DNA of 64,000 nt from Cupriavidus basilensis (GTDB taxonomy: Bacteria > Pseudomonadota > Gammaproteobacteria > Burkholderiales > Burkholderiaceae). How positions within the stretch are numbered: position 1 is the stretch's first letter; each line of letters opens with the position of its first letter. The translations under genes and the position numbers were made by a program. The notes below the pieces were generated by a model. The model had not been told where the DNA came from, searched no databases, and saw only the letters and a program-made list of their open reading frames with translations. The stretch lies in assembly GCF_000832305.1 (NCBI RefSeq), contig NZ_CP010536.1, positions 744,001 to 808,000 of the forward strand. The letters are read 5' to 3'. Positions 25,536 through 52,849 of the stretch are shown here, one piece after another.

Positions 25536-26189
25536 TCAGGCGCGGCGCTGCGGCAGGATGGCGTCCAGGAAGGCGGTGGCGCGAAATTCCAGCTCGGCCA
25601 CGTAGTCGTCCACGCGCCGGCGGAAGTAGCGCCAGAAGATCAGTGCTGGAATCGCGATGATCAGGCCGAAGGCGGTGTTATAGAGCGCCACCGAGATGCC
25701 ATGTGCAAGCTGCTCCGGGCTGGCGCCGGCGCCGCCCTGGCTGCCGAAGATCTCGATCATGCCGATCACGGTGCCCAGCAGGCCCATCAGCGGCGCCACC
25801 GAGGCGATCGTGCCGAGTGCGTTCAGGTAGCGCTCCAGCTCGTGTGCCACGGCGCGCCCGGCTTCCTCGACCACTTCCTTGGCGGCATCGCGGGACGTAT
25901 GGGGCTGCAGCACCACATGGCGCAGGCCAGCGGCCAGCACGCGGCCCAGCGGGGAGTCCTGCTCCAGCGTGTTGACCACCTCCGGCGTGGCGCGGCGCTG
26001 GTGCGCTACCGACAGGGCTTCGTCGTACAGCTTGGGCGGCAGCACCTTGCTGCGCTTCAGGCTGAGGAAACGCTCGACGATCAGCGCCAGGGCGATGACC
26101 GAGGCGAGCAACAAGGGCCAGATCGGCCAGCCGGCAGCTTGAATGATGGAAAACACGTGGAACCCCGAGTCAACGGCTTGTGTGCTCAT
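25536..26189 (-). CDS. exbB: MotA/TolQ/ExbB proton channel family protein ExbB
   Basis: A 217-aa inner-membrane protein with three membrane helices (WPIWPLLLASVIALALIVERF; TIASVAPLMGLLGTVIGMIEIF; YNTAFGLIIAIPALIFWRYF). The family motif APLMGLLGTVIGMI is clear. Forms the proton channel with the downstream ExbD. Start uncertain: MSTQAVDSG at 26189 is chosen, but MASARTAAAPG at 26222 is in frame and neither has a strong ribosome-binding site. Two direct copies of ATGTTCGAAA lie around 26221-26240 just upstream. Confidence 0.9.
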   Translation of the reverse strand: MSTQAVDSGFHVFSIIQAAGWPIWPLLLASVIALALIVERFLSLKRSKVLPPKLYDEALSVAHQRRATPEVVNTLEQDSPLGRVLAAGLRHVVLQPHTSRDAAKEVVEEAGRAVAHELERYLNALGTIASVAPLMGLLGTVIGMIEIFGSQGGAGASPEQLAHGISVALYNTAFGLIIAIPALIFWRYFRRRVDDYVAELEFRATAFLDAILPQRRA

Positions 26190-26352
26190 GCCAGGCGCCG
26201 CGGCCGTGCGCGCGCTGGCCATGTTCGAAAATGTTCGAAAAAATCAGGCGCCACTCTAACCCGCAGCACGGGGCGGGGCAAGACGCAGCATCGCGGTGTG
26301 TCTGCCGCGCATCGTGCGTACGCGGCGCTGGAGGGGGGCGACTGGCGGGATG

Positions 26353-26425
26353 TCCACATGGAACAGGGACAGTGCTGTGGATGAATTGTGGACAGAGGGC
26401 TGACAAGGCGGTCAACTCACTGATT
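26353..26425 (+). repeat. DnaA-box-like module 1
   Basis: A 40-bp core (26353-26392) begins with TCCACAT and ends with two direct TGTGGA elements 11 bp apart (26376 and 26387). After a fixed 24-bp spacer comes TCACTGATT (26417-26425). The TCCACA to TGTGGA pair is inverted. The elements match 6-7 of the 9 bases of the DnaA box TTATCCACA. Confidence 0.85.
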
Positions 26426-26526
26426 AATAATGAAAAATTGTATGTCGCTTAAAAAATGGGCAAGCGGTGAGTGACGAGGACATCCTCTAGGCGGGCGCGA
26501 ACCGCTCAAAACCGGAGTCCGGTCTA

Positions 26527-26599
26527 TCCACATTAAAACAGGACAGTGCTGTGGACCGTTTGTGGACAGACGCCGGAAAAGAAAGCTAAGTCATTGATT
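26527..26599 (+). repeat. DnaA-box-like module 2
   Basis: Same architecture as module 1 with no length change. CTATCCACA (26524-26532, 8 of 9 to the consensus box) opens the core. TGTGGA elements follow at 26550 and 26561, the shared GGACAGTGCTGTGGA block ends at 26555, and TCATTGATT (26591-26599) comes after 24 bp. Starts 174 bp after module 1. Confidence 0.87.
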
Positions 26600-26709
26600 G
26601 GAAAGGCAGGTATACGTGGTGCCTAAATAATGTGCAGGGCACGCCAGATGGGCTTCGCGGGGGCCTCCGACGTCCCGTGAAGGAAAAAATCCCGCCATGT
26701 CTCCCCCTT

Positions 26710-26782
26710 TCCACATTCCGCCGGGACAGTCTTGTGGACGGGTTGTGGAAAACTATCTGAGAAGCCACTTAAGTCATTGATT
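26710..26782 (+). repeat. DnaA-box-like module 3
   Basis: Same spacing again. CTTTCCACA opens at 26707, TTGTGGA elements are at 26732 and 26743, and TCATTGATT (26774-26782) follows 24 bp after the core. Starts 183 bp after module 2. Sequence outside the shared positions is unrelated between modules, so the spacing is what is conserved. Confidence 0.87.
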
Positions 26783-26947
26783 AAAAAGCGCTTCATGGAT
26801 GCTGATTAAAAAACGGGCAACGGCCGTTTGCACGGTGTTTTCCAGTCTCCGCGCTCGTGCTCAGGACATGGCCATGCCATGTCGCGGCAAGGAGGCCTTG
26901 GGGTCTCTTTTGGCCGCCGGATGGGCACTCCGGCGGGCAGGAAATAG

Positions 26948-27042
26948 TTTTCCACAGAAAATGCGTTCTACCCAAGGTTGTCCAGAGTTCCTGTGGATAA
27001 CTTTGTGAACAAGCCGGGGGGGCGGCCGGTAAGTGTTTGACG
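26948..27042 (+). repeat. Diverged module 4 with a perfect DnaA box
   Basis: Contains TTTTCCACA (26948-26956), an exact DnaA box TGTGGATAA (26992-27000) and TTGTGAA (27003-27009). AAGTGTTTGAC (27031-27041) stands at the same distance from the last box as the AAGTCATTGATT element in modules 2 and 3. The left half is 18 bp longer than in modules 1-3. Confidence 0.7.
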
Positions 27043-27220
27043 CATAAGGGGTTTGCTTACATTGCCTAAAAAATAAGACAGCCGAAAGCGCATAAGAATC
27101 AAAGGCTTGTGTCAAGTCATGCGGCTTTGCGGGGTTATTGCCTCCCCCACTCCAAGAGACTTGACAGACCAGTTATGCTGTGGACATGTCAATTCCACGC
27201 CGCTTGCCCGGCCGTGCGCC

Positions 27221-28606
27221 ATGTCAGAACCGCTGAATTTTTCGCGTGAAACCCAGCCTATGGCCCCTCCCGGGGCGCGTGAGGCGATTCCCGTCGGAGA
27301 GCTGAACCACGCGATCGCCCAGGTACTGGAACGTAGTTTCCCGCTGACCTGGGTCCGGGGCGAAATCTCAAATTTCACACGCGCCGCCAGCGGCCACTGG
27401 TATTTCTCGCTCAAGGATGCGCGCGCGCAGATCCGCTGCGTGATGTTCCGCGGGCGCAACCAGCATGTCGACTTCACGCCGCGCGAGGGCGAGGCGGTCG
27501 AGGTGCGGGCGCTTGTATCCATGTATGAGGCGCGCGGCGAGTTGCAGCTCGGCGTGGAGGGCATGCGCCGCGCCGGCCTTGGCAATCTGTACGAGGCATT
27601 CCTGCGCCTGAAGGAAAAGCTCTCGCAGGCCGGGCTGTTCGCGCCCGAGCGCAAGCGGCCGCTGCCGGTCCACGCCCGCACCATTGGCGTGATCACCTCG
27701 CTGCAGGCAGCGGCCCTGCGCGACGTGATCAGCACGCTGCGCCGGCGCGCCCCGCATGTGCCCGTCGTGGTTTACCCGGTGCCGGTACAGGGCGCCGGCG
27801 CCGCGGTGAAGATCGCCGCCATGATCGACACCGCCAGCGAGCGCAACGAATGCGATGTGTTGATCCTGTGCCGCGGCGGCGGCAGCATCGAGGACCTGTG
27901 GTCGTTCAATGAGGAGAGCGTGGTGCAGGCCATTGCGCGCTGCGCCGTGCCGGTGGTCTCCGGCGTGGGCCACGAGACCGATTTCACCATCGCCGACTTC
28001 GTTGCTGACGTGCGCGCGCCCACGCCCACCGGCGCCGCTGAGCTGGTCAGCCCGGACCGCAGCCATATGCTGCTGCAAGCCAGCCGCGCGCGCGACGCGC
28101 TGGCCCAGTGCATGCAGCGCCAGCTCGACCGGCGCGCCCAGAACCTTGACTGGCTGGCCCGCCGCCTGCGCAGCCCGCAAGCGCAGCTGCAGGAGCGCCG
28201 CCTGCAGATCGACAACCTCATGCGTCACTTGCGCTCAGCGCTGCGCGATACCGTGGCCGCCCAGCGGCACCGCCAGCAGGTGCTGGCCATGCGCTGGGCG
28301 GCTGGCCGGCCTGACCTGGCCCTGGCCCAGGCCGAGTTGCGCCGCACCGCGCTGCGCCTGCGCGATGCCACGCAGCGCCAGGTTGAGCGCGCCGGCCAGC
28401 GCTGGCAGCGTGCCGCCGGCACGCTCGAGGTGCTGGCGCCGCAGCGCACCCTGGAGCGCGGCTATGCTGTGCTGCTGGACCAGCGCGGACGCGCCTTGCG
28501 CTCGCCGTCGGAGCTGCGCGCGGGCACCGTGATCGAAGTCCACCTGGCCGAAGGCGTGGCCGATGCCAGCCTCGCCAGCGTTCAGCCCCGGCTGGTGGAA
28601 CGCTAA
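27221..28606 (+). CDS. xseA: Exodeoxyribonuclease VII large subunit
   Basis: A 461-aa nuclease subunit degrading single-stranded DNA. It has an N-terminal OB fold ([40 protein letters not shown]), a catalytic core ([65 protein letters not shown]) and a long Arg/Gln-rich coiled coil before ERGYAVL. Start at 27221 ([10 protein letters not shown]); the in-frame region back to 27107 overlaps the putative promoter. The small subunit xseB is not adjacent. Confidence 0.96.
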
Positions 28607-29543: not shown

Positions 29544-30581
29544 TCACGAATTGTCCTGCGCCCAGCGCTCCACCAGCTCGGCGGGGATTGCCTGGAACAC
29601 TTCATCGAAGCGCTTGCCGGTCAGCCGCTCGGCTTGCCTGAGCAGTAGCGCTACGGGGCTGCTGGGTTCATGCAGTTCGAACCATTGACGAGCGGTGCGC
29701 ACGCCGGCCAAGGCGGCATCGCGGTCCCGCGGCATGTCGGCGGCTGCATGCCCGGTGGCCGCCATAGGGCCAAAACCACCTGCGGCACCGTCGCCTGTCG
29801 AGGCCGCGATGCTCAAATCGGGCAGCGGCGGGGCGGCGGCCGCGACATTGCCCGTCATCGTGCCGAGCAGCTTGAGCAGCGGGCTCAGGTCAGGGCGGTC
29901 GTGCTGGAGGTTGGCTTTCGCCCAGCCGTCGATGGCAGCGGCATATCCCGCGGCTTCGTCCAATGCGAGGAGGGCGGGGCTGTGCTGCTGGCGCAGATCC
30001 TGCAATTGCAGGCGCACCGATTCCGGCGCCGGGGCGTCCACGGGCCGTGGCACACCGAGCGAACGCTCGACGTCCCGGACCTGCAGCCGAAGCGCGGCAT
30101 TGCCCGTGATCGTCAACGCCCGCACGTCCCGCATCAGCCCTTCCGGGTCGGCCAGCGCGGCCAGTGCGTTGGCGCGCATGGCAGGATCGGCTTCGTCATC
30201 GACCATCAACTGCGGATGGATCGCATCCGGCCATTTCGTCAGCAGTTGCGCCAGCGCCTCGAGGCCGTCTCTCAGCCCGGCCGTCTGGGCTAGCCGGGTA
30301 CGGCACCGCAGCTGCAGCACCAAAATGCGGATGTCGCGCGTTCGCAAGAGCAGGCGCCGGCAGTCGCGCTCCAGCTCGGCCCAGTTGCAGGCTTCCGGCT
30401 CACTGACGAAGTCGCCGTACTGTGCATCCGCCTTCGGAGCGGCCTTGGCCAGAAGCACGACGAATTCAGGGTCGTACTCCAGGTCATCGCCGCATGGCCC
30501 GTCGGGAGAGACCGGTTCCAGCAGCTCTGGGAAGGGAAATTCAGGTCTTGGCGCCGGTACGGGCCTGGTTTTGGCTTTCAT
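29544..30581 (-). CDS. tssA: Type VI secretion protein TssA
   Basis: A 345-aa cap and baseplate-coordination protein. The N-terminal ImpA domain is clear: FPELLEPVSPDGPCGDDLEYDPEF, then ILVLQLRCRTRLAQTAGLRDGLEAL and WPDAIHPQLMVDDEADPAMRANALAAL. The C-terminus (RDAALAGVRTARQWFELHEPSSPVALLLRQAERL) is the short type. Last gene of the minus arm, starting 2 bp after tssG. Start at 30581 (MKAKTRP). Confidence 0.93.
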   Translation of the reverse strand: MKAKTRPVPAPRPEFPFPELLEPVSPDGPCGDDLEYDPEFVVLLAKAAPKADAQYGDFVSEPEACNWAELERDCRRLLLRTRDIRILVLQLRCRTRLAQTAGLRDGLEALAQLLTKWPDAIHPQLMVDDEADPAMRANALAALADPEGLMRDVRALTITGNAALRLQVRDVERSLGVPRPVDAPAPESVRLQLQDLRQQHSPALLALDEAAGYAAAIDGWAKANLQHDRPDLSPLLKLLGTMTGNVAAAAPPLPDLSIAASTGDGAAGGFGPMAATGHAAADMPRDRDAALAGVRTARQWFELHEPSSPVALLLRQAERLTGKRFDEVFQAIPAELVERWAQDNS

Positions 30582-30583
30582 GG

Positions 30584-31624
30584 TCAATGTGTCGCGTAGT
30601 GTTCGGGCTCGAACACCATGCCGGTGATGGCGCGGCTGCGATCCGGTTCGCCCAGCCATGTCGACCAGCCCAGGCGTTCCTGTGAGCCCAGGATGGCAGG
30701 TGGCGCCGAGTCAGGGATCACCTGCAGCTCGGCTTCCCAAACGAATTCATGGCCTACGAAGGCGCGCACCCATTCAATGAGCGTCGGAAGGTCCCGGCCG
30801 TTGGGCGTAAAGTTCAGGTACTGCTGCAGCCCGAGCGGACCGATCACCAGGCGGAACTTGTGCTGGCGGTCCGGTACCATCTCGCCAAGCATGGCGCCTT
30901 GCCCCATGACGCTTGGGGCGCCCGGATGCCCCAGGCGGCTGTGCTCGGCCGGATCGATGGCGATCCAGTGCAGCACATATTCTTCCAGCCTGACGGATAC
31001 CCCGAAGAAGTGCGAGAGCGTGGCTGCAATGCCATCGGGATTGCGTGCTTCGCGCACCTGATGCGCACCGGCGGCGAGCCGCGCGTGCGGGGGCAGGGGA
31101 CTGTGCGCGATCTCTTCGGCTTCGTTGCCCGTCAGCCAACCGATATAGCGGGAGAACACCTCGTCGTCGCGCCGATCGAGGCCCGCCGCGGCTTGCGAGC
31201 CGGCCCAGGCACGGTAGAACTGCGTGAAAGCGCGATGGTGGAACAGATCCAGGAAATCGGCGGTGGTGCTGTCCCGGTGTGTTTCACTGCGCTCCCGTAC
31301 GATTTCCGTCAGGTGGATCGGCAGTGCCCCGTTCGGCCCCAGCATGCCCAGGCCAAACAACTGCACCTTGAGCCGGCCAGGCAGCGGCTGCACCTGCGCG
31401 ATCTCGCGGGGCGCGAAGGTGAGCGCGGCCTGCTGGCCAGCCCGGAATGGCTCGTCGCGCGGGCGGCTGGCTCGCCCGATCGGGGGCAAGCCAGGGTGCC
31501 GGGCGGACAGATGCCGCAGGAGCCCCAGAAAGCTCAGCTTCCACGGCGCCTGGCCGGCGTAGCTTCCCGGTGGCGCCGTGGCCGTTAGCGCTGGCGGCGC
31601 ATTGTCGTCGTGTCCTTTGAACAT
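30584..31624 (-). CDS. tssG: Type VI secretion baseplate protein TssG
   Basis: A 346-aa baseplate wedge subunit. Family features: FLGLLRHLSARHPGLPPIGRA near the N-terminus, then VQLFGLGMLGPNGALPIHLTE, DLFHHRAFTQFYRAWAGSQ and LGQGAMLGEMV-like text (VMGQGAMLGEMVPDRQHKF). Lies 2 bp after tssF and 2 bp before tssA, so translation is probably coupled. Confidence 0.94.
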   Translation of the reverse strand: MFKGHDDNAPPALTATAPPGSYAGQAPWKLSFLGLLRHLSARHPGLPPIGRASRPRDEPFRAGQQAALTFAPREIAQVQPLPGRLKVQLFGLGMLGPNGALPIHLTEIVRERSETHRDSTTADFLDLFHHRAFTQFYRAWAGSQAAAGLDRRDDEVFSRYIGWLTGNEAEEIAHSPLPPHARLAAGAHQVREARNPDGIAATLSHFFGVSVRLEEYVLHWIAIDPAEHSRLGHPGAPSVMGQGAMLGEMVPDRQHKFRLVIGPLGLQQYLNFTPNGRDLPTLIEWVRAFVGHEFVWEAELQVIPDSAPPAILGSQERLGWSTWLGEPDRSRAITGMVFEPEHYATH

Positions 31625-31626
31625 GG

Positions 31627-33507
31627 CTACACGGCGCTACGGCCGCCCATGCGCACGGGCCAGCGATGCACCAGGCCGCGTTGCATCGAGTGCAGTTCGG
31701 TCTGCGTGAAGACGTTGACCGACACGTGACGCGCCAGGAAATGCTCCAGCACCACGCCGAACAGGTATGGGCTGATGCCGGAGAAGCCGCCTTCGTCCAC
31801 GGTAAGCTGGCACCGGATACCACGGCCGTAGATCAACGGGCCGTTGCCCGGCAACCGTCTCATGACCGGCTCCACCTTCGAGCCGATCAGGCTCTGGATC
31901 TGCGCCTGGTGCGCCAGATCGTCGCTCGCCACGAAAAGCCGCAGCATGTCACGCAGCCCCTGGCCGCCTGAGCGATGCTCCAGGTCGGTCAGCGACAGGT
32001 AGTTGAAGCCCAACAGCCGAATCAGGCGCCAGGCCATTTCGCCGTCCGCGTAAGGTGGCCGAGGTGCCGACGGCGCGCGGATCAGCCCGATCCCGTCCAC
32101 GGGGATGGATGCCGCCGGGGTCAGGTCGTGCAGGCCATTGCGCGGTACCAGATTGGGCAGGTCGCGATTGGTGACCAGTGACTCCACCGACAGGTAGCGC
32201 AAGGTGTCCGGGTAAGGGGCCTCGTGCTGGTCCACCAGCGACACGAACAGCTCGGTGCCGACGTATGCGGTGCGGGTGCCGTACTTGCGAGCCTGCTCCG
32301 AGATCAGCCGGCGCTCGCGCCGCAGGGAAAAGTAACGGCCGTGATTGCCCTCGTCACTGTTCAGCGTGGCAAAGAGCGGCTGGAAGGCGATGCTGGCACT
32401 GTGCTCGGACTTCTGTCCGGAGAGCTGTTTGACGGCGTAGATTTCGTAGTCGAGCGGATGCTGTCGGTCGGCGACCAAATGGAAGTCGGTGCGCCCGGGC
32501 GTGATCTCGATGCGATCGGTGCGTTTTGGGAACAGATTGACCACCGGTGTGCAAAAGAGCGCGAACTGGTCCCGGTCGACCTGGCTGATCAGATTGCCGG
32601 GCGGCGTTGACAGCAGCACGACGATCTCGGCTTCCTTGCCGCGGATCTGGCCGAACCCTTGCGCCAGCTTGTTGAGACCGAAGAAGTAGAAGCGTTGCGG
32701 GCACGCGAAATATTCATGCAACAGGTTGTGCCCAAAGAAGTTGTTCCACGGCAACGGCAGCGCACCCTCGCCCGGACCCATGCCCACATAGCTGACGGCA
32801 TCCTCTGTCACCGCGCAGGGGCGTTCGCTCATGGCGCCGGGTTGTCCGATCAGCGTGGCGACGCTGGCGCTGTGCAAGAGTTCGAACAGGTGCGAGGCGA
32901 TCTGGTCGTCCCCGCACAGATAGACCGGCAGCTGGTCCAGGCCGGGCAATTGATCGAAGGTGGCATCGTGCGTGCAGCGCAGGCGTAGGCGCAGCGCTCC
33001 CTGTACCGTCAGGTGGGCAGGCACATAGCGCTCCAGCCCGCGAATGTCCGGTGGAATGCCAGTGAGCCGGGCTTCGGCGATTTCGAGCGGCCACAGCGTT
33101 AGCGGTTGCGTGGTCCTGAATTGGCAGGCCGTCTTCTCGCCCGGCGCCGGCGCGGCATCGACCTGCGCGCCGCGCGGCACCTCCACGCCACGGGCAAAAT
33201 CGCCCGCGACCCGGCTGGGGCGGAACTGTGCGACAGCAATCGACGGCGTCGGCGCAACGTAGTTCGGGTAGACCACCTCCAGCAGCCGCTGCGTAAAGCG
33301 CGGAAACTCCGCATCGAGCTTGATCTGGGTGCGCGCCGACAGAAAGCAGAACGCCTCGATCAGGCGTTCCACATAGGGGTCGGCCACCTCGGTGCCATGC
33401 ATGCCCAGGCGCCTCGCCACCTTCGGGTGCTGATTGGCGAATTCCCCGGCCAGCTCGCGCATGTAGACGAGCTCGCGGTTGTAATAGTCGAGCAGTTGCG
33501 GATCCAT
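31627..33507 (-). CDS. tssF: Type VI secretion baseplate protein TssF
   Basis: A 626-aa baseplate subunit. N-terminus MDPQLLDYYNRELVYMRELA, followed by EFANQHPKVARRLGMHGTEV and DPYVERLIEAFCFLSARTQI, all strongly family-typical. Near the C-terminus comes FSGISPYLFGVVLEHFLARH VSVNVFTQTEL. Full length. Four bp separate it from tssE and two from tssG. Confidence 0.95.
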   Translation of the reverse strand: MDPQLLDYYNRELVYMRELAGEFANQHPKVARRLGMHGTEVADPYVERLIEAFCFLSARTQIKLDAEFPRFTQRLLEVVYPNYVAPTPSIAVAQFRPSRVAGDFARGVEVPRGAQVDAAPAPGEKTACQFRTTQPLTLWPLEIAEARLTGIPPDIRGLERYVPAHLTVQGALRLRLRCTHDATFDQLPGLDQLPVYLCGDDQIASHLFELLHSASVATLIGQPGAMSERPCAVTEDAVSYVGMGPGEGALPLPWNNFFGHNLLHEYFACPQRFYFFGLNKLAQGFGQIRGKEAEIVVLLSTPPGNLISQVDRDQFALFCTPVVNLFPKRTDRIEITPGRTDFHLVADRQHPLDYEIYAVKQLSGQKSEHSASIAFQPLFATLNSDEGNHGRYFSLRRERRLISEQARKYGTRTAYVGTELFVSLVDQHEAPYPDTLRYLSVESLVTNRDLPNLVPRNGLHDLTPAASIPVDGIGLIRAPSAPRPPYADGEMAWRLIRLLGFNYLSLTDLEHRSGGQGLRDMLRLFVASDDLAHQAQIQSLIGSKVEPVMRRLPGNGPLIYGRGIRCQLTVDEGGFSGISPYLFGVVLEHFLARHVSVNVFTQTELHSMQRGLVHRWPVRMGGRSAV

Positions 33508-33511
33508 GGCG

Positions 33512-34042
33512 TCAGCTGGTGTGAATCGATTGGACGCTCATCCGGCTGGTTTCCAGGTCGAGCGAGCTTTGGGCAGTGAATGCCATCGGGTACGGGTCCA
33601 TATGGATCAGGCCCTTGATCTCGAAAACCAGGGTGTTGTAGCGCTGCGGCGCGTCTTCCTTCAAAAGCGCCTTCACGTCCAGAGAGCCGGGAATGAGCCG
33701 CGGCTCGAAGTCCAGGATAGCGCGCCTGACGATGTTGACGATGTCGTTCCATTTACGCTCGGACAGGTAACTGCCGGCGACCGGTGGTACCCCGTAGTTG
33801 ATTGTCGATGCTGCGGCAGCGGGATAGCGCTCGCGATCGATTTCGTCCTCGCGGCTGGTGGTATTGAGCAGATAGGTGAGATCGCGCTGGATGATCTCGC
33901 GCATCTGGGCGCGCGTGACGGTGTATTCGCTCGCGCTTTCGGTCTGCCGTTGGGGCGCGTCGTCGCGCAGCCGGTCAAAGAGCGTCGGCAGCAGTTGCGT
34001 ATTCGGGCGGCGCGGTACCCGCGGTGGGCGGTGGTCAGCCAT
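33512..34042 (-). CDS. tssE: Type VI secretion baseplate protein TssE (gp25-like)
   Basis: A 176-aa protein with the phage gp25 lysozyme-like baseplate fold: LLPTLFDRLRDDAP, then REIIQRDLTYLLNTTSRE, YPAAAASTINYGVPPVAG and NIVRRAILDFEPRLIPGSL. Slightly longer than typical. Its first 8 bp overlap the preceding 225-aa gene. Confidence 0.93.
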   Translation of the reverse strand: MADHRPPRVPRRPNTQLLPTLFDRLRDDAPQRQTESASEYTVTRAQMREIIQRDLTYLLNTTSREDEIDRERYPAAAASTINYGVPPVAGSYLSERKWNDIVNIVRRAILDFEPRLIPGSLDVKALLKEDAPQRYNTLVFEIKGLIHMDPYPMAFTAQSSLDLETSRMSVQSIHTS

Positions 34043-44687: not shown

Positions 44688-47272
44688 AGGGCTGCAAGTT
44701 CTGCGACAAGAGCGGACTGGCGATCTATCCAGTGCGTTACGGCATTGCGCCGGAGACGAGCACGGTACCCGAGCCGACCGGGCCGTTTGCACAATGGATC
44801 ACCGCTGTGCCGGTGGCGCCCGCGAAGTACGTGCTGCGCCGTCTGCGAGCCAGCTATCTGTACTGCTGGAATGAAGCGGACAAGGCGCAGCCATTGAAGG
44901 GCTATATGGTGCTTCCGGAGGGGTATCTGTATGAATTCGATCCCAGGAAGCCCGCGCCATCCGCCGAGGAGGCGAAGTTCAATTGCGAGCAGGCGGGGCA
45001 CGCCGCTATCGCCATGTGCATCACGGTTCCGCGCGCGGAGCAGGCGACCAAAGTCTGGCTGGGGGTCTCGGACACCGAGTGGACGGCGGCAACCATCGAG
45101 CGGCACCGCGATGCCGCATACCGGGACAGGCACATGCGTGTGCTTGACGTGCAGAAATGGTTGACCACGCAGAATCACCAGCACGCCGAGCGGATCGCGC
45201 AACTGGACAAGCGGGTCGCCGACTTCTATCTGACCAATCGTACCAAGCCAGCATCCTTTGACTTTGCGCCGTGGCCCTGGCACCCGGTCGATGATCAGTA
45301 TGCCGCGTTGTGCGAAAGGACGGCCGTGCTTGAAGGCGTGAAGCCGGCACAGAGCAAAGCCCTGTTCCTTGCCCTGCCAGACCCGGCTGGCATTGCCCAG
45401 GAGCTCTCCTTCCTGATGCAGTACGAACTGCGGCGCTTCAACAGCCGACCCGACTGGGCGCGTGAGGTGACGGTCAATGCCGCCATTCTGGGCATGAAGG
45501 AGGCGGTCGAGCATAGCGCGGAGCTGGCTGAGCTGACCGCTGCGGAGAATCTGAAGGCACAAGCATACGGCAACGAAAGCGGTGCGATGGCGCTGGAAAA
45601 TGTCATTGACTACGTTGGCGGGACCCAGCTTGCCCAACGCCGTGTCGAGCGCATCGAAACGGGATACGAGGTCACCGCCGAAGGACTGAAGAAGGTGAAG
45701 GACCAGGCGTGGGGACCCTACCTTGGCAAATACAACGAGCCGGCGCGCGCCAGCTTTGATAAGCGCTACAAGGAAGCGCTGGGGAAATTCGACCAGCGCA
45801 TGATCCTGCCGCTGGCCAAGGCACATGCCGCCTGGTTGAAAAACAGCCGCACGACGCACTACTTCACCTGCAACTTCGATACCGCGGATCTGGCCAGCGG
45901 CTTCGACTACGAAAGCGTCCTGACCCGGATGATCATGGGTACGGAGGACAAGCAACCGTGCAGCCTGCTCTATCAGGAATGGCTGGATGGCGATATCTCC
46001 GACCCGAAGAATCACCTGCTGCGAGCCCTGGGCGTCAATAGCGACGCCCTCATCAACAAGCTGAAGGAGGGTGTTGCCGGCAGCCCGGATCTGGCGGCGC
46101 TGCCCTGGGACAGCCTGATGGATAGCTACAAGCGTCTGGTGGAGGGGGCGGAGAAGCTGTTCGGCCAGACGGTGGAACAAAAGGCAGGCGCCGACAATCT
46201 GGCGCGCCTGGTCATGTACATCGCTGGCTCCGGCGCCGCGTTTCTGGGTCGCGGATTGGACAAGGCCGCAGGCAAGTCATGGATGACCCTGGTCGCAACG
46301 CTTGGCGTGCGCATCGGCAGGCCGATCGTGGTGGTCGATGTGGTGGGCACCAAGAAGAAGTTCCGCGAACAGATTCTGCGGGGCATGCTGCGCCTGCAAT
46401 CCGGTGCCGGAGGCAAGCCAGCCTATTCCGACAACCAGATCAAGAAGGCGGTGGCAGACGAGATGCGCCTGCTGCAGATCAAGGGCGAAGTACGGGAGGG
46501 AACCTTCAAGGGCCGGTTCCTGGTGGTGGTGGACGGGGCGCATCTCGAGCGCATGCCGGCAGGCCTCAAACCGGCGGAGCGGGCGAAGTGGGCGGCAAAG
46601 TCCATCCGCACGCTGGAGCAGTACGAGAGCAGCCTGGCCGCGCGCTTCCGGTTGGCCGTCACCAGCGGCATCCGCCTGGGTGCGGTCATGGCACTGATAC
46701 AGGTCGCGGGCTTGTCGAAGGCCATCGGCGACGAAGAGAAGGCGTCCGGATGGGAAAAGTCGGAGAAGGGCTGGCGGATGCGTGCGGCGGGCGCAGCGCT
46801 TGCTGCGACGATCGTCGACGTTACGGAGAAGGTTCTGGAAAAGACGTCTTGGGGCAGGACGCCGCTTGGGCGCTTGCTGCTTATGCGGCCACTGGCGAAC
46901 GTCACTTGGATCGGCTTGGCTGGGCGTGTGTTTGGCGGGGGCGCGGCGGCGATCGTGGCTGTCTGGGACAGCGTCAACGCGATCGAGCAGCTTCGACAGA
47001 AGAATTTCGGTTTGGTTGCGCTCTATGCCTTCTCCGCGGGAACTGGGGGCTTCCTTGCCTTCGCTGCAATGGGGGCATTGTCTGGGCCATTTGTCATCTT
47101 GGCGCTGGTTGCGTTCTTCGCGCTGCAGGTGATTATCGGGCTGGTGGTCGACAACAAGCTGCAAGAGTGGCTAAAGCGCTGCGTTTGGGGGGAGTTCCAA
47201 AGCAAAGGACTTGAGAACGCATTCCAGACTGGCCATCAGGAAATGCGGGAACTACAGAAAGCACTAGGATAA
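44684..47272 (+). CDS. VasX-like membrane-targeting T6SS effector (BTH_I2691-type)
   Basis: An 862-aa protein that opens with CKFCDKSGLAIYPVRYGIAP, the N-terminal hallmark of VasX/BTH_I2691-type T6SS toxins. This is followed by RRLRASYLYCWNEADK and YMVLPEGYLYEFDP. The middle is long and helical. Hydrophobic segments occur at about residues 505-520, 660-680 and, most clearly, 735-830 (VTWIGLAGRVFGGGAAAIVA, FGLVALYAFSAGTGGFLAFA, GPFVILALVAFFALQVIIGL). This suggests a pore-forming, colicin-like C-terminus acting on the target inner membrane. It is encoded between its DUF4123 adaptor and three membrane-bound putative immunity proteins. The pore-forming activity is inferred from VasX, not shown here. 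Confidence 0.85.
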   Translation: MKGCKFCDKSGLAIYPVRYGIAPETSTVPEPTGPFAQWITAVPVAPAKYVLRRLRASYLYCWNEADKAQPLKGYMVLPEGYLYEFDPRKPAPSAEEAKFNCEQAGHAAIAMCITVPRAEQATKVWLGVSDTEWTAATIERHRDAAYRDRHMRVLDVQKWLTTQNHQHAERIAQLDKRVADFYLTNRTKPASFDFAPWPWHPVDDQYAALCERTAVLEGVKPAQSKALFLALPDPAGIAQELSFLMQYELRRFNSRPDWAREVTVNAAILGMKEAVEHSAELAELTAAENLKAQAYGNESGAMALENVIDYVGGTQLAQRRVERIETGYEVTAEGLKKVKDQAWGPYLGKYNEPARASFDKRYKEALGKFDQRMILPLAKAHAAWLKNSRTTHYFTCNFDTADLASGFDYESVLTRMIMGTEDKQPCSLLYQEWLDGDISDPKNHLLRALGVNSDALINKLKEGVAGSPDLAALPWDSLMDSYKRLVEGAEKLFGQTVEQKAGADNLARLVMYIAGSGAAFLGRGLDKAAGKSWMTLVATLGVRIGRPIVVVDVVGTKKKFREQILRGMLRLQSGAGGKPAYSDNQIKKAVADEMRLLQIKGEVREGTFKGRFLVVVDGAHLERMPAGLKPAERAKWAAKSIRTLEQYESSLAARFRLAVTSGIRLGAVMALIQVAGLSKAIGDEEKASGWEKSEKGWRMRAAGAALAATIVDVTEKVLEKTSWGRTPLGRLLLMRPLANVTWIGLAGRVFGGGAAAIVAVWDSVNAIEQLRQKNFGLVALYAFSAGTGGFLAFAAMGALSGPFVILALVAFFALQVIIGLVVDNKLQEWLKRCVWGEFQSKGLENAFQTGHQEMRELQKALG

Positions 47273-47277
47273 AAAAT

Positions 47278-48225
47278 ATGACGATGGACTATACCGGGAA
47301 CACGCCAAAGTACAAGGTGAACCGGAATCTGACCGAGCAGGAGCGCACGGACCGGCTATTTCAGAAACGAAAGGCAACGGTGAGTAAGAGCGAGGACGTA
47401 CAGGATTGGGATGCGCTGATTCGATTGAACTCGACCTTCATCGAGGTGGTGGATAAATTCTACGCATGGAAGGGGATCCTTTTTGCTTTCGTTTTTGTAA
47501 TGGGTTGCGGATGGAGCGCAATGATTATATGGATGACGTGGTACGGATTGTTCGTGATCATAGACGAAATCCCGGGTAGGGTTGGTGAATTAATATCACT
47601 TCTTGTATTCCTTTGGGTTTTATCAATTGCACTTCTTACATTCCTGGGCTGGGTTGGTCACTTCGAAGCTTTTACCTTTACGCACTGGCCCGTACGCTTG
47701 AATAGGCGAAACCGTATGGTTTACGTTTTCCGCCGCAAAAGCGCTGGAGGAATGTTGACGCTCAAGTGGGAAGACATCTATTTCTGTATGGGGCCGGGCC
47801 AACCTTATGCAGGCCAGCCCTCGCTAGTCTGGGATATTCGCGGCCATGTGCTGGCGCCGGACAAGAAGACGGTGCTCGATACTTTCTCGGTGGGCATTCA
47901 CTGCACCAAGGACCTGCTGCCTGCTCACTGGGAATACCTGCGCCGCTATATGGAAGAGGGCCCGCAGAGTATTCCGATGCCGCGCCGGTACCTGCCGATT
48001 GCGGAGAAGCGGGAGTCTTTCTTGTTCGCTACCAAAGTGGCCTTCAGCAACTTCAGCTATGGCTATGCGTTCCTGCTGTTTGGCACGCCGTTCGCGCTGG
48101 TTACGTTGTTTGGGCGTTTGCTTTGCATGCCGACGAACAAGGTGCCGGTTTGGCCCGGGGAGGTGGAGGAGGCGTGCCGGATCGAGCCTGGCGACCCGTA
48201 TGAGCAGCGTGTTTCAGGAGAGTGA
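47278..48225 (+). CDS. DUF6708-type putative T6SS immunity protein, copy 1
   Basis: A 315-aa membrane protein, start MTMDYTGNTPKYKVNRNLTE. Residues 1-62 are soluble, about 63-135 form two or more membrane helices (WKGILFAFVFVMGCG; LLVFLWVLSIALLTFLGWVG), and the rest is a cytoplasmic-type domain with one more hydrophobic patch (YGYAFLLFGTPFALVTLFGR). It begins 5 bp after the effector gene and is the likely cognate immunity protein. The DUF6708 family name is from memory of similar T6SS neighbours. The two following paralogues share the C-terminal half but not the membrane segment. Confidence 0.82.
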   Translation: MTMDYTGNTPKYKVNRNLTEQERTDRLFQKRKATVSKSEDVQDWDALIRLNSTFIEVVDKFYAWKGILFAFVFVMGCGWSAMIIWMTWYGLFVIIDEIPGRVGELISLLVFLWVLSIALLTFLGWVGHFEAFTFTHWPVRLNRRNRMVYVFRRKSAGGMLTLKWEDIYFCMGPGQPYAGQPSLVWDIRGHVLAPDKKTVLDTFSVGIHCTKDLLPAHWEYLRRYMEEGPQSIPMPRRYLPIAEKRESFLFATKVAFSNFSYGYAFLLFGTPFALVTLFGRLLCMPTNKVPVWPGEVEEACRIEPGDPYEQRVSGE

Positions 48226-48369
48226 GAAATCAGAAGCAGGTCAATCTCGAACCGAGGCAGCAAGCGCCGGCAGATAGTCGTGAGTTGAACGGTACTTGTG
48301 AGTGGGACTGCTTCCAGCAATGCCCTACTGGTCTGGGGGAATTGCAGCAGGCATTGAGGTGAGAAACGT
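48226..48369 (+). repeat. Duplication spacer 1 with an effector-end remnant
   Basis: The spacer begins with a block shared by all three copies (TCTCGAACCGAGGCAG, about 48244-48259). It ends with a short reading frame WDCFQQCPTGLGELQQALR and a stop, resembling the effector C-terminus (FQTGHQEMRELQKALG). It appears to be the junction left by duplication of an effector-end plus immunity unit. Confidence 0.65.
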
Positions 48370-49317
48370 ATGACGATGGACTATACCGGGTACTCGCCAA
48401 AGTACAAACTCAATCGACCATTGACTGAGGAGGAGCGAAACGGCCGGCTGTTCCAGAAGCGGCGAGCAGCCGTGAACAAGGCCGAAGACGTACAGGATTG
48501 GGATGCGCTGATCATGCTGAACTCCACCTTCATGGAGCTTGTGGACAAGTTCTATGCGTGGAAAGGATTCATGTTTTCATTGATGGTAATTATGGGAAGT
48601 GGATGTTTTTTATTTTTATTTAATGTTACATGGATGGGCATTTTTGAAATGCCACATAGATTTCCAGAGAAATTGATAGAGCTAACATTGTCAATAATTG
48701 CTGTCTGGATGATGGCAATACCGTTGATGATTCTATTTATTTGGGCGGCTCATTTCGAATCCTTCACATGTAGTCACTGGCCGGTCCGACTAAACCGGAG
48801 AAACCGAATGGTCTATGTATTCCGCCGCAAAAGCGCCGGGGGAATGCTGACACTCAAATGGGACGACATCTATTTCTGCATGGGGCCGGGCCAGCCCTAT
48901 GCAGGCCGGCCTTCGCTAGTCTGGGATATTCGCGGCCACGTGCTGGCGCCGGACAAGAAGACGGTGCTCGATACCTTCTCGGTGGGGATTCACTGCACCA
49001 AGGACCTGCTGCCCGCTCACTGGGAATACTTGCGCCGCTATATGGAAGAGGGCCCGCAGAGTATTCCGATGCCGCGCCGGTACCTGCCGATTGCGGAGAA
49101 GCGCGAGTCTTTCCTGTTTGCTGCCAAGGTGGCCTTCAGCAACTTCAGCTATGGCTATGCGTTCCTGCTGTTTGGCACGCCGTTCGCGCTGGTTACCTTG
49201 TTTGGGCGTTTGCTTTGCATGCCGACGAACAAGGTGCCTGTTTGGCCCAAGGAGGTGGAGGAGGCGTGCCGGATTGAGCCTGGTGACCCGTATGCGCAGC
49301 GCGTTTCAGGAGAGTGA
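48370..49317 (+). CDS. DUF6708-type putative T6SS immunity protein, copy 2
   Basis: A 315-aa paralogue of copy 1. From HWPVRLNRRN (about residue 139) to the end it differs from copy 1 at only five positions by my count. Residues 64-135 (FMFSLMVIMGSGCFLFLFNV, then VWMMAIPLMILFIWAAHFES) share little beyond hydrophobicity and a TW pair. The DNA of this middle segment is markedly AT-rich. Likely an orphan immunity protein against a related effector of other strains. Confidence 0.8.
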   Translation: MTMDYTGYSPKYKLNRPLTEEERNGRLFQKRRAAVNKAEDVQDWDALIMLNSTFMELVDKFYAWKGFMFSLMVIMGSGCFLFLFNVTWMGIFEMPHRFPEKLIELTLSIIAVWMMAIPLMILFIWAAHFESFTCSHWPVRLNRRNRMVYVFRRKSAGGMLTLKWDDIYFCMGPGQPYAGRPSLVWDIRGHVLAPDKKTVLDTFSVGIHCTKDLLPAHWEYLRRYMEEGPQSIPMPRRYLPIAEKRESFLFAAKVAFSNFSYGYAFLLFGTPFALVTLFGRLLCMPTNKVPVWPKEVEEACRIEPGDPYAQRVSGE

Positions 49318-49683
49318 AACATCAGAAGCGGGTCAATCTCGAACCGAGGCAGCAAGGGCCGGCAGATAGTCGCGCTCTGAGCGGTATTTGTGCGTGGGAC
49401 CGATTCCAGCGGTGCCCCACTGGTCTGGAGGTTCTCTATCGCATCGGTGGCTACCTGGGGCGTTCGCCGCGCTGTTTGTTTGGTCGGGACCATTTGTCGT
49501 CCTGGCGCTGGTGGCCCTCTTCGCGCTGCAAGTGCTCATTGCACTGGTGGTCGACAACAAGCTGCAGGAGTGGCTTAAGCGCAGTGTCTGGGGGAAAGCT
49601 CAAAAGCGAGAGACCTGATGAGGCTTTCAAGACGGGTCATCAGGAAATGCAGGAATTACAGCTGGCATTAGGGTAAGAGACGT
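49318..49683 (+). pseudogene. Truncated, frameshifted remnant of an effector C-terminus
   Basis: After the shared tail block (TCTCGAACCGAGGCAG near 49336), a frame ending at 49618 encodes SGPFVVLALVALFALQVLIA, then LVVDNKLQEWLKRSVWG. This is nearly identical to the last membrane segment of the 862-aa effector. It stops early (KAQKRET). The final part continues in another frame to 49676 as DEAFKTGHQEMQELQLALG, matching the effector's last residues. So it is a decayed 3' end of a second effector, with no 5' part left. Confidence 0.82.
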
Positions 49684-50631
49684 ATGTCGATAGACTTTAC
49701 AGGGCAGATACCAAAGTACAAGATCAACCGTCCTTTGACCGAGCAGGAGCGCGCAGAACACCTGTCTCAGAAGCGGCCGGCGATGGTGAGCAAGGGCGAA
49801 GACGTGCAGGATTGGGATGCGCTTATCCGCTTGAACTCGACCTTCATTGAGGTGGTTGATAAGTACTATGCTTGGAAGGGATTCGCATTTGCCATTTTAT
49901 TTATTCTGGGGTGTGGGTCGTTGGTCTTGGTGCTCAGCATAACGTGGCTTGAACTGTTTGAAAATCTTGGAAAAGTAAAGGAAGAGACAGGGGAGATAAT
50001 ATTGTTCTTGGTAGCATTCTGGTCGATGACCATATTTCTCATCATATTTATTGGGTGGTTTGTTCGATTTGAAGTATTTTCCGTTACTCATTGGCCGGTC
50101 CGCCTTAACCGGCGAAACCGAATGGTTTATGTATTCCGCCGTAAAAGTGCCGGAGGAGTTCTGGCGCTCAGATGGGAAGACATCTACTTCTGCATGGGGC
50201 CTGGTCAGCCTAATGCAGGGCGGCCTCCGCTAGTCTGGGATATTCGAGGCCACGTGCTGGCGCCGGACAGGAAGACGGTGCTCGATACCTTCTCGATGGG
50301 GATTCACTGCACCAAGGACCTGCTGCCCGCTCACTGGGAATACCTGCGCCGCTATATGGAAGAGGGCCCGCAGAGTATTCCGATGCCGCGCCGGTACCTG
50401 CCGATTGCGGAGAAGCGCGAGTCTTTCCTGTTTGCTACCAAGGTGGCCTTCAGCAACTTCAGCTATGGCTATGCGTTCCTGCTGTTTGGCACGCCGTTTG
50501 CGCTGGTTACGTTGTTTGGGCGTTTGCTTTGCATGCCGACGAACAAGGTGCCGGTTTGGCCCGGGGAAGTGGAGGAGGCGTGCCGGATCGAGCCTGGTGA
50601 CCCGTATGCGCAGCGTGTTTCAGGAGACTGA
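49684..50631 (+). CDS. DUF6708-type putative T6SS immunity protein, copy 3
   Basis: A 315-aa paralogue, start MSIDFTGQIPKYKINRPLTE. Its C-terminal half differs from copy 1 at about ten positions. The membrane segment (FAFAILFILGCGSLVLVLSI, then VAFWSMTIFLIIFIGWFVRF) is again divergent and AT-rich. The preceding effector remnant suggests it once paired with that lost toxin. The following 85 bp repeat the shared tail block before the PAAR gene. Confidence 0.8.
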   Translation: MSIDFTGQIPKYKINRPLTEQERAEHLSQKRPAMVSKGEDVQDWDALIRLNSTFIEVVDKYYAWKGFAFAILFILGCGSLVLVLSITWLELFENLGKVKEETGEIILFLVAFWSMTIFLIIFIGWFVRFEVFSVTHWPVRLNRRNRMVYVFRRKSAGGVLALRWEDIYFCMGPGQPNAGRPPLVWDIRGHVLAPDRKTVLDTFSMGIHCTKDLLPAHWEYLRRYMEEGPQSIPMPRRYLPIAEKRESFLFATKVAFSNFSYGYAFLLFGTPFALVTLFGRLLCMPTNKVPVWPGEVEEACRIEPGDPYAQRVSGD

Positions 50632-50716
50632 AAAGTCAGAAGTGGGTCGATCTCGAACCGAGGCAGGAAATGCCGGCGGATACCGCGACCGGCTTGGGTC
50701 ATTTTGGAGTGAGAAC

Positions 50717-50998
50717 ATGAACTTGCCAATTATCACAGTGGGTGACACTACCACGCACGGCGGACGCGTCATTACCGGTTCCGCATCCCATCTCTTGCAA
50801 GGCCGGCCTATTGCCCGGCAGGGCGACCTGGTCGATTGCCCGGAGCACTACTCGGACGGGCGTCCACACGGGGTCAACGCCATCACCGAAGGGCACCCAG
50901 CCTTTCTGGTGGAAGGGCGGCCAGTTGCGCTGCACGGACATCGCTGCGAATGCGGTTGCGAGCTGATCGGCTCGCAGCTTGCCGCCGTCGGAGGCTGA
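50717..50998 (+). CDS. PAAR-domain spike-tip protein
   Basis: A 93-aa protein that sharpens the VgrG tip. The PAAR pattern is evident: ITVGDTTTHGGRVITGSASH, RPIARQGDLVDCPEH, HGVNAITEGHPAFLVEGRPVA and the metal-site HGHRCECGCELIGS. GGAGTGAGAAC precedes the ATG. It carries no C-terminal toxin extension. Confidence 0.93.
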   Translation: MNLPIITVGDTTTHGGRVITGSASHLLQGRPIARQGDLVDCPEHYSDGRPHGVNAITEGHPAFLVEGRPVALHGHRCECGCELIGSQLAAVGG

Positions 50999-51000
50999 GC

Positions 51001-51501
51001 ATGCGTCAGTTGTACCGCTATTGGCCGATGGCGATTGCCTTGCTTGCCGGTTGCGCGGCCAGTCCCGTGCAGAATGAACAGATGAAGCTGGTGCTCCGTG
51101 CGGAAGCCAAGCCAACCGTCAATCCGGATGCGAGGGGGCGAGCGAGTCCTGTTCTGGTGCGCATGTACGAGCTGAAGTCCGATGGGACATTCGCAAACGC
51201 AGACTATTTCACGCTGCAAAGCGCAGACAAGACGCTGCTTCTTGACGATCTCCTCGCTCGTGACGAGTTCATCCTTCGGCCGGACGAAACCCGGGATTTC
51301 GAAAGAAAGCTGAATCCGGCAACCACGGCACTGGGCTTTCTTGTTGGTTACAACGATCTTGGGAAGGCCACCTGGCGAACGGTCTACAAGCTGCCGCCAG
51401 CAACGGAAGCCGCGTGGTACAGGGCGGTAGTGCCGGCACGCAAGATCAAGCTGCAGGTCTTGCTTGATCAGTTGACCATCAACATTACAAAAATCGAGTG
51501 A
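51001..51501 (+). CDS. tssJ: Type VI secretion outer-membrane lipoprotein TssJ
   Basis: A 166-aa lipoprotein with lipobox LLAGC (Cys18) and a transthyretin-like domain: LVLRAEAKPTVNPDARGRAS, PVLVRMYELKSDGTFANADY, DDLLARDEFILRP. It anchors the TssLM membrane complex at the outer membrane. Two bp after the PAAR gene and 4 bp before tssK. Confidence 0.94.
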   Translation: MRQLYRYWPMAIALLAGCAASPVQNEQMKLVLRAEAKPTVNPDARGRASPVLVRMYELKSDGTFANADYFTLQSADKTLLLDDLLARDEFILRPDETRDFERKLNPATTALGFLVGYNDLGKATWRTVYKLPPATEAAWYRAVVPARKIKLQVLLDQLTINITKIE

Positions 51502-51505
51502 TTCA

Positions 51506-52849
51506 ATGAGTTGGTATAACAAAGTCGTCTGGAGCGAAGGCCTCTTTTTGCGTCCACAGCTGTTCCAGCAACAAGAACGCTATCTTGAGCATTACGCCCA
51601 TAAGCGTAGCGCGGCGCTTGGCCCGTTCTTCTGGGGTTTCAATCAGGTTGACATTGATACCGAAGCGCTCGCGGTAGGGAAGCTCGTTGTCTCCGCTGCC
51701 GCCGGCATCTTTCCGGACGGCACGCCATTCGATGCGCCGGGGCAGGTTTCATCGCCAGCGCCGCTGGCGCTCCGGCATGAGCATGTTGGCCAGATGGTCT
51801 GTCTGGCCGTGCCGATCCGCACGCCGAACGCACAGGAGACCGACTTTGACGATGCCGCGGATTCGTTGGCGCGATTCCGGACGTTTGAGGAAGATCTGCT
51901 CGACGCCAACTCGATCTCGCAGGGTCCGAAGCTGATCCAGCTGGCCGACCTGCGCCTGCGCTTGCTCACGGAGAAGGAGTTGACCAGTGCGTGGCTCGGC
52001 ATGCCGCTGGCACGAGTCAGCGAGGTTCGCGCCGATGGTAGCGCGAGGCTTGACGGGGCATTGATTCCACCGGTCAGCACCTTTGCCGCCAGCCCATTGC
52101 TGTACAGCTGGCTTACCGAAATCCACGGCCTGCTGCGCATGCGTGCTACGGCCATGGCCGAGCGCCTTTGCGCCGCGAGCATGCGGGGTGGGGATGCGGC
52201 GGAAGTCAGCGAGTATCTGATTCTGCAGCTGCTGAACCGCTATGAGCCAATTCTGACGCATCTGCTGGCCGTCAAAGCTGCCTCGCCGGAAGTCCTCTAT
52301 GTCCATTTGGCGGCGCTGTCTGGTGAGCTATCGACGTTCGTGCGCACGCACAGCCGTCGACCTGTGGAGCATGCCGCTTACCGACACGATGCCCCGCATA
52401 TTTGCCTGAAGCCGTTGTTCGACGACCTGCGCTTCCTGCTCAATGTGGTCCTTGAGCGTGCCGCCCAGAGGATCGAGCTTGAACTTCAGCCGCACGGCAT
52501 CCGGCTGGCTGTGCTGGACCCTGCGGAGATCCAGCGCTTCACGACATTCGTGCTGGCTGTCGCGGCGCAAATGCCCGTGGATACGCTGCAGCAGCAATTT
52601 CCGGCCAAGGCAAAGGCGGGCCCGTCCGAGCGCCTGGTCGACTTGATACGGTCTCATTTGCCGGGGATTCCACTCCAGGCGCTGCCGGTACCGCCGCGGC
52701 AGATTCCGTTCAATGCGGGCTATGTCTACTTCGAGCTTACCCGAGAGAATCCTCTCTGGAAGCAAGTCGAGAAATTTGGTGGGCTGGCATTACATGTTGC
52801 CGGCGATTTTCCTGATCTGCAGGTTGACCTTTGGGGAGTTCGTAGCTGA
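51506..52849 (+). CDS. tssK: Type VI secretion baseplate protein TssK
   Basis: A 447-aa connector between baseplate and membrane complex. The start MSWYNKVVWSEGLFLRPQLF QQQERY is highly family-typical, followed by ALGPFFWGFNQVDIDTEALA and FPDGTPFDAP. The C-terminal part ends NAGYVYFELTRENPLWKQVE. Its stop overlaps the tssL start by 1 bp (TGATG). Confidence 0.96.
   Translation: MSWYNKVVWSEGLFLRPQLFQQQERYLEHYAHKRSAALGPFFWGFNQVDIDTEALAVGKLVVSAAAGIFPDGTPFDAPGQVSSPAPLALRHEHVGQMVCLAVPIRTPNAQETDFDDAADSLARFRTFEEDLLDANSISQGPKLIQLADLRLRLLTEKELTSAWLGMPLARVSEVRADGSARLDGALIPPVSTFAASPLLYSWLTEIHGLLRMRATAMAERLCAASMRGGDAAEVSEYLILQLLNRYEPILTHLLAVKAASPEVLYVHLAALSGELSTFVRTHSRRPVEHAAYRHDAPHICLKPLFDDLRFLLNVVLERAAQRIELELQPHGIRLAVLDPAEIQRFTTFVLAVAAQMPVDTLQQQFPAKAKAGPSERLVDLIRSHLPGIPLQALPVPPRQIPFNAGYVYFELTRENPLWKQVEKFGGLALHVAGDFPDLQVDLWGVRS

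Follow-up and report, generated by a model that had tools for sequence, protein, structure and literature searches.

A tandem array of DnaA-box modules with DARS2-like architecture upstream of xseA in Cupriavidus basilensis

To our knowledge, the reactivation of DnaA outside Escherichia coli and its kin has been little worked out. The closest described systems are DARS1 and DARS2 of E. coli. According to PMC5742627, the cores of both contain three DnaA boxes at the same spacing, with box I opposed to boxes II and III, and DARS1 works in vitro without IHF or Fis. DARS2 requires IHF and Fis sites and loses activity when its IHF site is displaced by 5 or 10 bp, as stated in a 2014 paper (PMC4245941), where the DARS2 core and Fis are described as specific to gammaproteobacteria related to E. 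coli. A 2023 review regards DARS-like sequences as conserved in many proteobacteria (PMC10380432). Concerning Cupriavidus, Ralstonia and other betaproteobacteria, we found no description of such an element in the open-licence literature, which was covered mostly as titles and abstracts. The C. metallidurans genome paper reports DnaA boxes near oriC and, at 3,707,588, four putative boxes clustered within 65 nt; origin boxes are also mentioned in the paper on C. necator NH9.

Anatomy of the array

The window, that is, the whole stretch of 64,000 nucleotides that was analysed, corresponds to C1:744001-808000 of the C. basilensis genome (8.42 Mb, two contigs), and positions without a contig prefix refer to it. 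Three 115-bp modules lie in non-coding DNA at 26350-26461, 26524-26635 and 26707-26818. They are flanked by an ExbB/TolQ-like gene on the minus strand (25536..26222; the TolQ model scores higher than the ExbB model, both below cut-off) and by xseA on the plus strand, encoding the large subunit of exodeoxyribonuclease VII (27221..28606; TIGR00237, 479 bits, the cut-off being 180). In each module an inverted DnaA box is followed by a degenerate one (GGGACAG) and a pair of direct DnaA-type boxes; behind these lie an IHF consensus site (+60) and a Fis-type site (+94), with offsets counted from the TCCACA of the inverted box. Strong conservation among Cupriavidus modules spans about -2 to +111 and then ends.

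In module 1, the inverted box I (ATGTCCACA, 26350..26358, minus strand) matches TTWTNCACA at 7/9 positions. The degenerate box II (CAGGGACAG, 26364..26372, plus) occupies the box II position of DARS, 5 bp past box I, matches TGTGNAWAA at 4/9 positions and is conserved as GGGACAG. Box III (TGTGGATGA, 26376..26384, plus; 8/9) follows with a 12-bp period from box II, like in E. coli DARS, and an extra box IV (TGTGGACAG, 26387..26395, plus; 7/9) with an 11-bp period from box III. The IHF consensus site is written CAACTCACTGATT (26413..26425, minus); its reverse complement matches WATCARNNNNTTR with 0 mismatches, and the Fis-type 15-mer GCTTAAAAAATGGGC (26447..26461, no strand assigned) fits GNNYRNNWNNYRNNC. 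Module 2 repeats this order with box I (CTATCCACA, 26524..26532, minus; 8/9), degenerate box II at the DARS position (ACAGGACAG, 26538..26546, plus; 4/9), box III (TGTGGACCG, 26550..26558, plus; 6/9), box IV (TGTGGACAG, 26561..26569, plus; 7/9), a perfect IHF consensus at +60 (TAAGTCATTGATT, 26587..26599, minus) and a Fis-type 15-mer (GCCTAAATAATGTGC, 26621..26635, no strand). In module 3 the corresponding sites are box I (CTTTCCACA, 26707..26715, minus; 8/9), degenerate box II, again at the DARS position (CCGGGACAG, 26721..26729, plus; 4/9), box III (TGTGGACGG, 26733..26741, plus; 6/9), box IV (TGTGGAAAA, 26744..26752, plus; 9/9 to TGTGNAWAA), a perfect IHF consensus at +60 (TAAGTCATTGATT, 26770..26782, minus) and the Fis-type 15-mer GATTAAAAAACGGGC (26804..26818, no strand), which fits the broad consensus and fails the stricter GNNYANNNNNTRNNC at position 11.

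A first-pass annotation, made from the letters of this DNA, had described a geometry of TCCACA, 17 bp, TGTGGA, 5 bp and TGTGGA at 26353, 26527 and 26710, with an AT-rich TCAYTGATT element 24 bp beyond the boxes. The geometry is present exactly there and the element in all three modules. TCAYTGATT is part of the 13-bp IHF consensus, the AT-rich element being one strand of it. The annotation had also taken the sequence between the common positions to be unrelated, which did not hold: GGGACAG, the whole 13-bp IHF consensus and the 15-bp Fis-type site at +94 are common as well. Many similar patterns elsewhere in the genome, which the annotation had named as a point against it, did not turn up: spacers of 16-18 and 4-6 gave three occurrences in the 8.42-Mb genome, all in the array, and the backwards-pattern control gave 0. 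Searched with a profile of the module, the genome yielded the three modules and, at E 2.9e-4, a fourth element; the one other place was insignificant (E 0.72). PLSDB, searched for plasmid-borne copies, gave no match.

The statistics of the sites were examined in 120 distinct modules picked by the DnaA-box pattern alone. The IHF consensus with at most one mismatch stood at +60 in 99% of them and in 42 of the 43 representatives under 75% identity (without mismatch in 20/43); the mean fraction at other offsets was 0.0004 among these representatives. The Fis consensus was found at +94 in 86% of the 120 modules and in 36/43 representatives, with a mean fraction of 0.003 elsewhere. The broad Fis form gave a second, lower peak at +26 (33%; 8/43), and the stricter published form occurred at +94 in only 16/43 representatives. 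For the DnaA boxes, whose hexamers at -3, +23 and +34 are the selection criterion itself, the 9-bp consensus with at most one mismatch was present in 71% for the inverted box at -3, in 55% for the direct box at +34 and in only 4% at +23 (43% with two mismatches).

When the DARS spacing is applied to modules 1-3, the conserved GGGACAG takes the place of box II and the first TGTGGA that of box III, with the fourth box 2 bp later. GGGACAG matches the DnaA consensus at 4/9 positions, and the mean match at that offset is 4.06 versus 3.15 overall. Four rumen-type MAG contigs carry a canonical box II at this very spot (scores for I-II-III-IV of 9-9-9-9) and Geomonas has scores of 6-8-9-7; these five contigs were found by the hexamers of boxes I, III and IV, so that box II is the only independent one. 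Among weak matches of profile R2 (see below) from the same class, L252 scores 9-9-8 and L245 has the intermediate TGGGGATAA. Since canonical boxes occupy the same spot in other DNA, we take GGGACAG to be a box II that has diverged and would still be a DnaA site. DnaA binding to box II of modules 1-3, with its 4/9 match, may fail.

The contigs with canonical boxes have features of their own. L071, L072, L090 and L145 (the rumen-type proteobacterial MAG contigs) and L081 (Geomonas propionica) carry the boxes as I-5-II-3-III-2-IV, and all five have a TGCYTAA-type palindrome at the Fis position of the modules. The neighbours in L071, L072 and L081 (transposase-like, ankyrin, AMP-binding) do not include dnaA. 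The weak same-class matches L242, L244, L245, L248, L252 and L254 have DARS-type cores and may be undescribed DARS sites; the genes beside them vary (tsaD, fructosamine kinase, phosphate transporter and others).

The fourth element lies closest to xseA, which it abuts, and is strongly conserved. Its core, TTGTCCAGA-5-TGTGGATAA-3-TGTGAACAA (26978-27012), keeps the spacing of the DARS core, and its boxes are near-canonical: an inverted box I (26978..26986, minus; 7/9), a perfect box II exactly 5 bp past it (26992..27000, plus; 9/9) and box III a further 3 bp on (27004..27012, plus; 8/9). The first-pass annotation had correctly noted the perfect DnaA box here but had called the module diverged; in fact nothing else in the window comes as close to an E. 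coli DARS core. An IHF-like site (TAAGTGTTTGACG, 27030..27042, minus) is placed 26 bp past the beginning of box III, its last box, the same distance as in modules 1-3. The incomplete Fis-type half site (GCCTAAAAAATAAGA, 27064..27078, no strand) may belong to the xseA promoter. From all loci collected, 60 distinct sequences with the II-III motif TGTGGATAAC-NN-TGTGAA were compared. Box I of at least 7/9 stood at the fourth-element spacing in 57/60, the misses being two clostridial contigs and the copy of 'Burkholderiaceae bacterium PBA' (PBA), which is without box I. The IHF core YAANNNNYTGA was located at +38 or +39 from box II in 57/60 copies, and the full Fis consensus at the fourth-element offset in 8/60 copies only, 52/60 being without it.

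Conservation and spread of the modules

The first-pass annotation had proposed that the spacing be looked for in relatives, and there it is conserved. In a family sample of 150 genomes, searched with spacers of 15-19 and 3-7, 30 genomes match. All 14 Cupriavidus genomes have exactly three copies, all 13 Ralstonia genomes (g24) have two or three, and PBA, in g4, has two. Two g9 genomes have an oriC-like palindrome or a single site. Among the public genomes described below, Cupriavidus AU9028 (L097) has two exact copies only. In the family sample, four of the five Ralstonia genomes with two exact copies have a further module with TCCCCA replacing TCCACA. BLAST with the intergenic region detected 23/24 same-genus genomes, the missing one having 54% completeness, and beyond the genus gave only one 26-bp match.

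A scan of public genomes with the exact pattern returned at least 119 stretches, each cut at 8 kb or less. Among the 119 matches listed, 40 have two or three modules on one strand, 76 have one and 3 are palindromic. All 40 multi-module stretches listed also encode ExbB or XseA, and 28 of them encode both. When 56 listed loci (54 without an array, PBA and one Burkholderiaceae MAG) were re-scored with profile R1, built from the Cupriavidus, Ralstonia and PBA modules, most matched in the boxes only or not at all, and these are probably chance or oriC-type DNA. In PBA (L084:538-3604), a 3-kb block lies between two full-length modules, a natural insertion; judged by eye, its genes are a tripartite-transporter pair and a MarR-type regulator.

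R1 matches 85/399 genomes of the order. Profile R2, made from 51 modules of other families, matches 178/399 genomes and 89/158 genera when the threshold is E 1e-3. A single genome has as many as nine matches, often clustered. At E 1e-10, R2 matches 41 genomes in nine families; beyond the 178, the other 221/399 genomes of the order gave no R2 match. The modules of the window, absent from R2 training, score down to 2.9e-14 with R2, and the profiles from family f1 and from other families detect each other. In G172 (family f8) the array's flanking genes exbB and xseA are found again, with weaker and partial module matches. Elsewhere the neighbours are an asparaginase in f28, a pseudouridine synthase in f22 and an aconitase gene in G518. 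Matches outside the order are weak: 18/274 genomes in a class search (16 of these outside the order; best 3.7e-8) and 21/299 in a phylum search (11 outside the order, the best of which was 1.3e-5).

The profiles also allowed the distances between sites to be compared. The last box lies 26 bp from the IHF site in 31 of the 32 modules of the R1 set (Cupriavidus, Ralstonia, PBA) and 15 bp from it in 42 of the 51 modules of other families, of which one has 6 bp and eight have no IHF core. The 26 versus 15 bp amounts to an 11-bp step, one helical turn, so the box and IHF site stay on the same face of the helix. From IHF to Fis, where both were found, the distance is 34 bp in 25/32 modules of the R1 set and 33 or 34 bp in 39/51 of the other families. 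Only 24/51 modules of other families contain the full IHF 13-mer when up to one mismatch is allowed, and the presence of IHF and Fis sites there is partly selected, because the R2 training modules were found by R1, including its IHF and Fis columns. The 11-bp spacing step is free of this selection.

Weighing a DARS2-type function

Taken together, the sites and their order in the array point to a tandem DARS2-type locus for the reactivation of DnaA, which would probably convert ADP-DnaA to ATP-DnaA through three self-contained modules and a fourth core. The first-pass annotation had suggested a datA/DARS-like DnaA control locus; the DARS half of that suggestion is supported, and specifically the DARS2 form, with the DARS core spacing followed by IHF and then Fis. 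The core I-5-II-3-III of E. coli DARS1 and DARS2 is identical to that of the fourth element, and to those of modules 1-3 if GGGACAG is box II. DARS2 shares further traits with the modules, as its box I is inverted and followed by IHF and then Fis, and as it is non-coding and away from oriC. For this comparison the E. coli sites were assigned from the core spacing and from remarks in PMC4245941, giving two IHF-like sites, each with one mismatch and separated by the 3 bp which that paper states, and a Fis consensus behind them. DARS2 differs in that its IHF site stands 67 bp past the beginning of the last box versus 26 bp in modules 1-3 or 15 bp in most other-family modules, and in its length of 455 bp versus the 115-bp modules, which stand in tandem. 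Modules 1-3 in turn have the degenerate box II and an extra box IV without E. coli counterpart. As for DARS1, the fourth element TCCAGAGTTCCTGTGGATAAC resembles its TCCACTATTCCTGTGGATAAC and shares the core spacing, but no IHF consensus with up to 1 mismatch was found in the DARS1 stretch, unlike in the modules. E. coli DARS1, DARS2 and datA gave no match to R1 or R2 at E up to 10, and the link is thus one of architecture and not direct sequence homology. DARS2 fits the architecture better than any rival; modules 1-3 fit in spacing, IHF and Fis and not in the sequence of box II, and the fourth core is the firmest case for DARS membership.

A datA-like or purely titrating locus, in which boxes and IHF bind ATP-DnaA and promote its hydrolysis or hold DnaA, lowering initiation, is unlikely, though of the other readings it has the most in its favour. 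The datA of E. coli is likewise built from DnaA boxes with one IHF site (PMC5742627), several boxes in the array are imperfect, and multiple copies would suit a sink. That paper, however, places the IHF site of datA between the DnaA boxes, whereas in the modules the boxes are on one side of it and a conserved Fis-type site on the other; no Fis consensus was found in datA. Box I opposing box II is the signature of DARS, and pure titration would need no fixed IHF and Fis offsets. In addition, datA is near oriC in E. coli, according to PMC4585315, and the array is not. We consider it improbable that the array is a promoter region for xseA or exbB controlled by DnaA, IHF and Fis, a reading that the first-pass annotation had offered with DnaA as the regulator. 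It does lie in the divergent exbB-xseA region, and the fourth element, with its strong conservation, overlaps a candidate seen by eye upstream of xseA (TTGACG, then TACATT). A consensus scan of 26200-27260 nevertheless gave no sigma-70-type site. Moreover, the modules extend 870 bp upstream, those of PBA stand on both sides of the 3-kb block, and modules in other families adjoin asparaginase, pseudouridine synthase, aconitase and other genes. A promoter therefore leaves the array unexplained, with modules split in PBA and other neighbours elsewhere; for the fourth element the proposal can stand, and that element may double as promoter DNA.

DnaA boxes, IHF sites and AT-rich patches are also parts of an origin, and a relic or cryptic replication origin had been among the annotation's suggestions. 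This is very unlikely: dnaA and canonical oriC-type boxes beside it (C1:250-290) are about 770 kb away, the skew of the window has no clear switch at 26-27 kb, and clusters occur at varied loci across the order. The oriC of the same chromosome shares DnaA boxes with the array but differs by its canonical boxes beside dnaA and by having no R2 match at E up to 10. The annotation was right that the neighbours are not replication initiators, since the flanking genes, checked by models, are not initiator genes. Equally doubtful is a trigger on chromosome 1 that times the replication of a second chromosome, like crtS of Vibrio. Such a trigger would suit a genome with two large replicons and an array on the one with dnaA, but strong module matches occur in one-contig genomes, e.g. 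G522, G412 and G365, and the sites, compared with DnaA, IHF and Fis consensuses, fit these. Small RNA genes in tandem or a structured RNA, suggested by three near-repeats in an intergenic region whose TCCACA/TGTGGA arms could pair, seem hardly credible. The only matches from Rfam, two to snoRNAs at E 0.52, were below threshold and lay outside the array. The stem would have 6 bp, with compensatory change in 0/6 pairs and one broken pair (32 sequences, 31 of them chosen by that pattern), and the 11-bp spacing step and the DNA-site consensuses at fixed offsets fit DNA-binding proteins.

Genome setting, proposed working and wider bearing

The genome encodes the proteins that a DARS2-type locus would use. 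DnaA is encoded, dnaA lying at C1:619, and contains the stretch GGRDHTTVLHA, which we take to be part of its DNA-binding domain. Genes for Hda, IHF alpha and IHF beta are present, each over the model cut-off. A 77-aa Fis-family protein passes the cut-off of NCBIfam PRK01905 but not that of the Fis model PRK00430; its gene sits between dusB- and purH-like reading frames, both named by eye. Across the order, a Fis-type match was obtained in 385/399 genomes, a search that also picked up related helix-turn-helix proteins and in which only 48/399 pass the cut-off. Among the 14 genomes without any Fis-type match, 12 belong to family f41, and none of these 12 has an R2 match; one of the remaining two has a weak R2 match (6.5e-4). 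Because f41 is one lineage, the link between Fis and the modules across the order is only suggestive.

When one contig is treated as the whole chromosome, which simplifies the several assemblies with more contigs, the distance from the array to dnaA is 0.34 of the half-chromosome. It is 0.22-0.37 in seven Cupriavidus including the source and 0.56-0.57 in four Ralstonia; the value for E. coli DARS2 is 0.41. In seven genomes of other families, the module distance is not constant (0.30 to 0.97). Second module sites were noticed near the point opposite dnaA at G379:C1:2961400 (0.95 of the half-chromosome) and G365:C1:2032400 (0.97).

The sites with their spacing and order, their conservation, the distance from dnaA and the presence of these genes constitute the observed architecture. 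From it we infer that DnaA, IHF and Fis bind at the array and that ADP is released there. ADP-DnaA, made after initiation by Hda-dependent inactivation, would assemble on box I, which is inverted, and on boxes II-III(-IV), which are direct. IHF would introduce a bend immediately past the last box; in growing cells, Fis bound about two helical turns beyond IHF would complete a folded complex. Head-to-head contact between DnaA on box I and DnaA on box II would loosen ADP. Apo-DnaA would then leave and bind ATP, providing more ATP-DnaA for the next initiation at oriC some 0.77 Mb away. Three copies might raise the output or make the response steeper.

It is possible, and offered here tentatively, that a DnaA-recharging element is far wider than the DARS of E. 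coli. Such an element would be a compact unit of an inverted box, a specialised GGGACAG box, two direct boxes, IHF and Fis, arranged in tandem in betaproteobacteria as a station tuned to dosage or growth phase, with canonical-box relatives in other proteobacteria and Geomonas. If this is true, control of this type predates the split between gamma- and betaproteobacteria. A mapped 115-bp unit, at one locus in Cupriavidus and with up to nine profile matches per genome elsewhere, makes the question of DnaA reactivation testable. Between lineages, the shift of one helical turn is in effect nature's own test of spacing in a complex bent by IHF. The GGGACAG box, for its part, may be tuned to one nucleotide state of DnaA.

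Two further features of the window were noted. At 46000-52000 the GC content falls to 0.52-0.59 and the GC skew rises to 0.16, suggesting a foreign segment. On the minus strand at 29544-34042, a run of reading frames resembles type VI secretion genes by eye.
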